Below are positions 27,176 to 28,124 of a DNA stretch of 43,039 bases, one piece after another. The position numbers and the translations under genes are program-made. The notes below the pieces were generated by a model. The model had not been told where the DNA came from, searched no databases, and saw only the letters and a program-made list of their open reading frames with translations. The stretch is taken from positions 1-43,039 of the IMG/VR virus record IMGVR_UViG_3300043410_000408; one strand, written 5' to 3'. The first letter of the stretch is position 1. The number at the start of each line of letters is the position of its first letter. This DNA is from a virus.

Positions 27176-27546
27176 TGACATTTGAAGACTTTTGGGCTGA
27201 ATGGCCTAAATCTGTTCGCAAGGGTGGAAAGTCTGCTTGCAAAGCAAAGTGGGAAAAGCTCAAGCTTGACACTGACGTGGAGACAATAATTGCCCATGTG
27301 AAATACATGAAGACTACTGACGCTTGGAAAAAGTCCGATGGGGCTTTTATCCCTGCTCCATTGGTCTACATCAACCAGATGCGTTGGGATGGTGCTGAAG
27401 TGCCTGAAGTGACTGTGAATGTCTCTATCAATTTCAAAGATCCTGCATTGGAGAAGATTGAAAAAGACAATGAAAAAGCAGCCCCGATGCCTGAGAATGT
27501 CCGACAAAAACTGAGGGACTTGACAAAAGCCCTTAAGTCGGCATAA
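27175..27546 (+). CDS. Replication protein-like C-terminal domain protein
   Basis: The product is 123 residues from ATG 27175. MTFEDFWAEWPKSVRKGGKS, then KAKWEKLKLD, AHVKYMKTTDAWKKSDGAFI and PAPLVYINQMRWDGAEV, matches a domain found at the C-terminus of phage replication initiator/helicase-loader proteins (FeeFW..yPkk..k..A...w.kl...ipnP..wL...rW). Here it stands alone without an N-terminal DNA-binding domain. It may load or recruit a host helicase. It is the last gene before the structured RNA element. Confidence 0.65.
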   Translation: MTFEDFWAEWPKSVRKGGKSACKAKWEKLKLDTDVETIIAHVKYMKTTDAWKKSDGAFIPAPLVYINQMRWDGAEVPEVTVNVSINFKDPALEKIEKDNEKAAPMPENVRQKLRDLTKALKSA

Positions 27547-27560
27547 TCCAAACCGTTGTC

Positions 27561-27655
27561 GTAGTGGACAGCAAGTTGAAGCCGCTTACTCATGCATCTG
27601 TCCCCTTAAAAAAGGGATCCACTACCGGATGCAGTAGTAAGTGGCTTTTTTGTTT
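27561..27655 (+). ncRNA. Pseudoknotted RNA / terminator candidate
   Basis: Three helices can be drawn. P1 pairs 27561-27568 with 27618-27625 (eight perfect pairs). P2 pairs 27579-27590 with 27636-27647 (12 pairs, one G-U) and continues as 27593-27598 with 27628-27633 (six pairs). P3 is a five-pair hairpin, 27603-27607 with 27612-27616. P1 and P2 interleave, so together they form an H-type pseudoknot. A run of T follows at 27646-27651. P2 plus the T-run is a strong terminator. A competing helix, GGACAG 27566-27571 with CTGTCC 27598-27603, is also possible. The pairing is read by eye; function is unknown. Confidence 0.65.
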
Positions 27656-27688
27656 TCCATTACGGCAATCCTCAGAGCGGGTTAGCTA

Positions 27689-27991
27689 ATGGTCCATGTC
27701 GGGGATGCACTCAAAGAACCGATGCGCTTACTGACAAGCCAGCGCGTGAACTTGCTAGAGGTATCACAGGAACAAGGCAAATTGGGTGATGGTCGATTAG
27801 CTGACGTAAACAGCGCCTTGGAAATTGAATCTAGACCTTATGGGTGGAGTAGTCTTAAACAAGATGGCTCAAGTTGGTGGGTATCACCTTCTTGGCTTGT
27901 CCTATGGGTAAATGAAAATGAACAAAAAAACTGCAATGAAATTGTTAGACAAAGCTCGAATGGATCACCTTATTCCGGTAAGATTGATTAA
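27689..27991 (+). CDS. Doubtful ORF after the RNA element
   Basis: The open frame has 100 codons from ATG 27689 with no good ribosome site. The first 75 residues (MVHVGDALKEPMRLLTSQRV...) do not resemble known proteins, although SLKQDGSSWWVSPSWLVLWV reads protein-like. The 3' part overlaps a better candidate at 27912 in another frame. Bases 27656-27911 otherwise hold nothing I can name; they could instead be a leader or an origin region. Confidence 0.25.
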   Translation: MVHVGDALKEPMRLLTSQRVNLLEVSQEQGKLGDGRLADVNSALEIESRPYGWSSLKQDGSSWWVSPSWLVLWVNENEQKNCNEIVRQSSNGSPYSGKID

Positions 27992-28124
27992 CGAAGCTCT
28001 AATAGCAACAGGAGACATTGATGTTCGACGACTTGATCCAGAGATTGACCGATCACTACGCCAGAATGGCAATGAATCCTGCTACCGTAGAACACGCTCG
28101 TTATATGGTCAGACAACATCGTGA
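27912..28124 (+). CDS. Small basic protein, function unknown
   Basis: The product is 70 residues (or 68 from ATG 27918). MNKKTAMKLLDKARMDHLIP then VRLINEALIATGDID is a convincing helical protein. The last 35 residues overlap the next gene in another frame and look like an untypical tail. No strong ribosome site is visible. The gene may be real with a 3' end that has drifted. Confidence 0.45.
   Translation: MKMNKKTAMKLLDKARMDHLIPVRLINEALIATGDIDVRRLDPEIDRSLRQNGNESCYRRTRSLYGQTTS

Follow-up and report, generated by a model that had tools for sequence, protein, structure and literature searches.

A pseudoknotted RNA built around a terminator hairpin recurs in diverse phages and may be the first of two parts of a noncoding locus

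Among the noncoding RNAs of phages, GOLLD and ROOL are large, modular and pseudoknotted, and they often lie beside tRNA genes (PMC12286853). The element described here, which we call RNA A, differs from them in that it is only about 100 nt long and carries its own terminator. The GOLLD and ROOL models of Rfam matched nothing in the window (the whole stretch of 43,039 nt analysed, IMG/VR virus record IMGVR_UViG_3300043410_000408), in 13 loci or in 8 marine phage loci. Betaproteobacteria-1 (RF02932) is, like RNA A, a structured RNA, and it is known from phages and betaproteobacteria, but in seven phage contigs it corresponds to the neighbour of RNA A, termed RNA B below, and it never matches RNA A itself in the contigs tested. 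The RNA antitoxins of type III toxin-antitoxin systems likewise combine a pseudoknotted RNA with an intrinsic terminator behind it, through which some transcription is expected to leak, whereas RNA A has neither tandem repeats nor a toxin gene and is followed by another RNA. The put RNA of phage HK022 and the EAR element of Bacillus are structured RNAs that form the beginning of their transcripts. RNA A is also structured and also lies at a predicted transcript start; it differs from both in including a full terminator, and it matches neither in sequence or family. Finally, Pistol and HDV-like ribozymes contain a comparable hairpin-loop or nested pseudoknot, in which a 5' loop pairs with a downstream bulge. 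In RNA A, however, P3 precedes the 3' strand of P1, P4 and a catalytic junction are missing, and there is almost no RNA 5' of the element to cleave off. In particular, the aligned elements leave no room for an HDV-like P4 or a J4/2 catalytic cytosine, because P2b directly follows the 3' strand of P1.

A first-pass annotation of the window had remarked that no described class fits this RNA, and this still holds, as no Rfam 15 family matches RNA A. Namely, the window gave no family at the gathering threshold, and at E-values up to 10 the region 27500-28100 gave below-threshold matches only, as did the region of L006. ARAGORN called no tRNA or tmRNA for RNA A, and a literature search found no description of the element.

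The architecture of the element in the window is summarized in Table 1. A pseudoknot of P1 and P2 with a small inner hairpin P3 had already been proposed, and all three are present at the positions then given, to within one base; P0, the promoter and the strand beyond the T-run had been missed. P2a and the six T's make up a G+C-rich hairpin with a T-run directly 3', as in intrinsic terminators, and this arrangement is conserved. The terminator hairpin is here, in addition, a building block of the pseudoknotted fold. The covariance model R1 scores the window element at 95 bits. Folded without its pseudoknot, the 100-nt RNA reaches -43.5 kcal/mol (z = -6.1), and for the nested part with its flank the folding z is -8.7. 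That said, every helix may not form simultaneously in one molecule, because P1, P2b and P3 abut with zero spare bases between them and a few elements have very short linkers (about 2 nt in L062, about 3 nt in L137). P1 could therefore be transient, or it could form between molecules.

Table 1. Positions of the promoter, RNA A with its helices, and RNA B in the window
Feature	Positions	Strand	Remarks
Sigma70-type promoter, TTGACA-16-CATAAT (predicted)	27520-27547	+	Lies within the upstream gene, at its 3' end
RNA A, whole pseudoknotted element, ~100 nt	27553-27652	+	Alignments A1 and A3; covariance model R1
P0 hairpin, GUUGU/ACAGC	27555-27572 (pairs 27555-27559/27568-27572)	+	Loop contains the P1 5' strand
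P1 5' strand, GTAGTGGA	27561-27568	+	Pseudoknot; loop of the P0 hairpin
P2 5' strand	27580-27600	+	P2a, mismatch CA, P2b
P2a	27580-27590 with 27636-27646	+	Sequence
P2 internal mismatch, C.A/G.U	27591-27592/27634-27635	+	Sequence
P2b	27593-27600 with 27626-27633	+	Sequence
P3 hairpin, UCCC/GGGA, capping P2	27601-27617 (pairs 27601-27604 with 27614-27617)	+	
P1 3' strand, TCCACTAC	27618-27625	+	Bulges from the 3' arm of the terminator hairpin, immediately 5' of P2b
P2 3' strand, terminator stem	27626-27646	+	
T-run of the intrinsic terminator	27646-27651	+	
P1' strand	27657-27668	+	Can pair with the 5' arm (27553-27568), as a second possible partner of the P1 5' strand
RNA B, second structured noncoding region	about 27660-27915	+	Compensatory changes against L046 and L155

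The gene upstream of the element (27178-27546) belongs to a PHROG annotated as 'replication initiation protein', and the promoter-like sequence lies within its 3' end. The transcript should therefore begin at P0, and we expect the start site of RNA A at about 27553-27556. Across homologues the -10 box keeps a fixed distance, mostly 12-13 nt 5' of P0, and it scores at least 9/12 against the consensus in 82 of 106 homologues, a score that 49 of 530 shuffled sequences reach. A conserved promoter thus presumably starts transcription at P0.

Homologues were collected in several ways. A search of IMG/VR turned up 57 loci with a relative of the upstream gene, many of which carry the element, either downstream or upstream of that gene. 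A scan of viral sequences with the pattern GTTGYCGT...CRAC...GGCTTTTTT, followed by removal of chance matches by eye, gave at least 105 distinct elements, and 106 elements were used in the comparisons below. A second viral scan, in which only the letters of P2 were required, added at least 66 further distinct places. RNA A thus recurs in more than 100 diverse phage contigs, with one element per contig among the matches listed. Although the second scan did not require the T-run, 63 of the 66 places among the matches listed keep it, and several of the three that do not resemble chance matches. Such a T-run and a conserved promoter at P0 make it plausible that, as had been suggested, termination produces RNA A. 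In cellular genomes, the loci listed by a pattern scan were scored with the model; the best of these 80 reached 26 bits, which is the level of chance, and none of the 80 is a real RNA A. Among annotated phage records, one (MW202484.1, 91 bits) carries the form found in the window, which we call the freshwater form. There, a hypothetical protein (UOF77725.1) is annotated over RNA A and RNA B (L297:6425-6784), and this is probably a false gene.

How well do these homologues support the proposed helices? It had been argued that an eight-pair P1 in register with a terminator is unlikely by chance, and the comparison bears this out: an exact Watson-Crick complement of the 7-nt loop stands beside P2 in 105 of the 106 distinct elements, which between them have 25 different loop sequences, while a control in which loops were exchanged between elements succeeded in 1 of 10,260 cases. 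The complement of P1 lies 15-19 nt upstream of GGCTTTTTT in all 105 elements. A direct search for the complement was used here because both the MAFFT and the model alignments misregister P1 where the length of P2b varies, its range being 5-8 pairs. What is more, in the matches selected on P2 only, the P1-type pairing of the 5' region scores 19.7 against 15.2 ± 0.35 in permuted sets, of which the highest reached 16.5 (0 of 2000 as high as observed). Over the whole of alignment A1 the covariation score is 0.411, against 0.170 ± 0.006 for shuffled alignments (0 of 500), with double-sided changes in 23 of the 33 pairs of the structure. As for the single helices, P2 is paired in 97.9% of cells and has double-sided changes in 14 of 18 pairs, P2b covaries, P3 has double-sided changes in all four of its pairs, and P0 occurs in compensatory variants (ATCAC/GTGAT in L351; GTTGG/CCGAC in L366 and L378). 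The first-pass annotation had staked its proposal on covariation of P1 across homologues, and P1 and P2 both covary. The helix GGACAG/CTGTCC, which it had offered as a competing fold, is present in the window but missing from all 105 others, and it was hence set aside as a product of chance.

The 5' arm has a second possible partner in the P1' strand beyond the T-run. The duplex of the two is worth -19.6 kcal/mol, and in the minimum-energy fold of a longer, flanked sequence it forms instead of the pseudoknot. At 106 loci the pairing of the arm with its own P1' scores 17.4 against 14.9 ± 0.26 for permuted partners (0 of 2000 as high), although relatedness of the loci may inflate this statistic, and support for P1' is weaker than for P1. 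Three Vibrio phages (L387, L391 and L392) have versions of P1' with 14-16 bp. A conserved alternative helix that would disrupt the terminator, as expected of an attenuator or a riboswitch, was not found: paired with the linker, the P2 5' strand and P3, the 5' arm scores 12.0 with its own sequence and 11.97 with permuted ones, and 892 of 2000 permutations are as good.

Immediately 3' of RNA A in the window lies not rusA but a second structured RNA, RNA B, with 78-82% identity to L155 and L046 and with compensatory changes; a sister group of RNA B has further ones. Across phages, the conserved, noncoding-looking region that follows the T-run falls into several sequence classes. An open reading frame at 27689-27991 overlaps RNA B in the window. 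It has no Pfam match and, though open in L046 by eye, is stopped in L155, and we therefore read the region as RNA. RF02932 corresponds to RNA B in L061:356-474, L147:8239-8356 and five more contigs, that is, in 7 of the 43 contigs tested, always on the same strand and beginning 14-18 nt past the end of the RNA A model. In these phage contigs the orphan Betaproteobacteria-1 RNA thus gains a constant partner. The RNA B of the window itself is not a member, as RF02932 gave no match in 27500-28100 at E-values up to 10, and Rfam does not contain the family to which it belongs. We had predicted that RNA A would also stand upstream of RF02932 in Burkholderiales genomes, and this failed: model R1 found no RNA A within about 1.5 kb of RF02932 in the genomes that have it (6 of 399). 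RNA B can therefore exist without RNA A.

A related, marine form of the element was found in 35 record matches (34 without one at E = 0.9), exclusively from Vibrio and Pseudoalteromonas phages, and mostly in records without annotation of the element. Cultured carriers include Pseudoalteromonas phages BS5 and HS2 and Vibrio breoganii phage 1.085.O. By reading, P0, P1, P2 and P3 all recur. Seven of these elements (L323, L381-L383, L385, L386 and L389) have an extra helix between the P0-P2 linker and the loop of P3 (GATAATTGGTG/CACCAATTATC, AATAGG/CCTATT, TGACGTTGGGTT/AACCTAACGTCG and AGATGGT/ACCATCT, among others), so that the predicted pseudoknot is more complex in marine versions. Model R1 scores marine elements at 26-35 bits or not at all, similarly to the reverse-strand self-matches of the palindrome. 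A common origin of the marine and freshwater forms is nevertheless likely, and because of these low scores it rests on the architecture and on a shared CATGC/GCAG motif. The gene context differs as well. In freshwater phages the element stands ahead of early replication and recombination genes, whereas in marine phages it is found in head-gene regions (as in Pseudoalteromonas phages), beside a phosphoesterase gene, or close to where the record ends. In Vibrio phage 1.085.O, annotated genes for tRNA-Trp and tRNA-Arg follow directly after the T-run, and in four more Vibrio phage records a tRNA-Trp lies under the element match. Read-through seems to be needed in these five records, because tRNA-Trp starts a few bases past the T-run. 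In Pseudoalteromonas phage HS5 (L389) the fold of P1 and P2 is kept and the T-run is absent, which suggests that the fold of RNA A is not kept for termination alone.

Given these findings, we think it rather probable that 27553-27652 is an autonomous phage gene for the structured RNA A, which would form the 5' module of a two-part A-B locus. The predicted structure is supported by covariation, and with it go a promoter-like sequence, a T-run and, where RF02932 is present, a constant spacing to RNA B. From these features we infer transcription, partial termination, two RNA species and action in trans, as follows. RNA polymerase would start at P0, and RNA A would fold as it emerges, the loop of P0 pairing with the 7-8-nt bulge 3' in the terminator hairpin (P1) to give a loop-bulge pseudoknot. 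Most polymerases would halt at the T-run and leave a stable RNA of about 100 nt with both ends in helices, while a minority would read through into an A-B RNA, RNA B following about 15 nt later. In this long form the 5' arm could leave P0 and P1 and pair with P1', its 5' end still being buried. RNA A would act in trans, probably in complex with a protein or within an RNA particle, as its own promoter and its differing gene neighbourhoods suggest.

Would control in cis account for the locus equally well? The first-pass annotation had proposed that the RNA controls read-through into the rusA cluster specifically, and this finds no support, because the gene context of the element varies between phages. 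In a milder role, partial termination may set the amount of downstream RNA. More generally, a cis-acting attenuator, in which a factor or the P1 pseudoknot would set read-through from an operon leader into RNA B and the genes beyond, agrees with the order of promoter, structured RNA, T-run, RNA B and genes on one strand, with the two possible partners of the 5' arm, and with the fact that in many freshwater phages the element heads a rightward gene cluster. Still, we consider it unlikely: no conserved pairing opens P2, the terminator stem is intact under both P1 and P1', and the downstream genes vary. An autonomous RNA gene is favoured over a switch for one operon by its own promoter, its varied context, the missing antiterminator and the fold that is kept without a T-run. 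A processive antitermination or polymerase-modifying element of the put or EAR type, whose nascent RNA would let polymerase pass later terminators, could be expected directly after a promoter and ahead of early genes, where RNA A lies in many phages, and EAR is likewise a pseudoknotted leader RNA. However, we know of no such element that includes a complete terminator as RNA A does, and no Rfam family of this kind matched the window at E-values up to 10, all of which makes this explanation quite improbable.

Two further explanations have even less in their favour. The region is rich in inverted repeats, and palindromic DNA elements exist in phages, as a DNA-level signal (an origin or a recombination site) or a chance array of repeats would have it. 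Yet an RNA agrees with the pseudoknotted pairing, with a promoter and a T-run that are strand-specific, and with a neighbour from a known RNA family on the same strand. Chance is excluded by the covariation score, the P1 complement test with its loop-swap control and the permutation test on P2-selected matches, and we regard the whole explanation as very improbable. A type III RNA antitoxin would have the identical order of promoter, pseudoknotted RNA and leaky terminator, followed by a toxin gene. RNA A, however, occurs once per contig and not in tandem, and what is conserved behind it is RNA B and not a toxin gene. For the open reading frames that come next in the window, Pfam and PHROG gave no match to toxins; such an identity is scarcely credible.

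In a bolder version of the autonomous RNA gene, a whole new superfamily of modular phage RNAs would share RNA A as its universal 5' module, joined to varied B modules, Betaproteobacteria-1 among them. With its loop-bulge pseudoknot embedded in the terminator, RNA A would give two RNA species per promoter, a short knot that ends at the terminator and a long A-B RNA whose 5' arm pairs anew beyond the T-run, and it would act in trans as a machine comparable to GOLLD and ROOL. This is conceivable, though we hold it to be doubtful. In any case, a strongly covarying RNA present in well over a hundred phage contigs is absent from Rfam and mostly unannotated, and since its related form occurs in cultured Vibrio and Pseudoalteromonas phages, the function of such RNAs is directly testable.

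Some variants of the region beyond RNA A deserve mention. In L068 and L134 an extra module of ~180 nt separates RNA A from RNA B. It is flanked by arms that complement each other (GACTGTTT... with ...AAACAGTC-like), and its insertion suggests that these RNAs are assembled modularly. In L117 and L114, RNA B contains embedded tRNA-like inserts (GGTTCGAA..., with degenerate arms), in which ARAGORN calls no tRNA.
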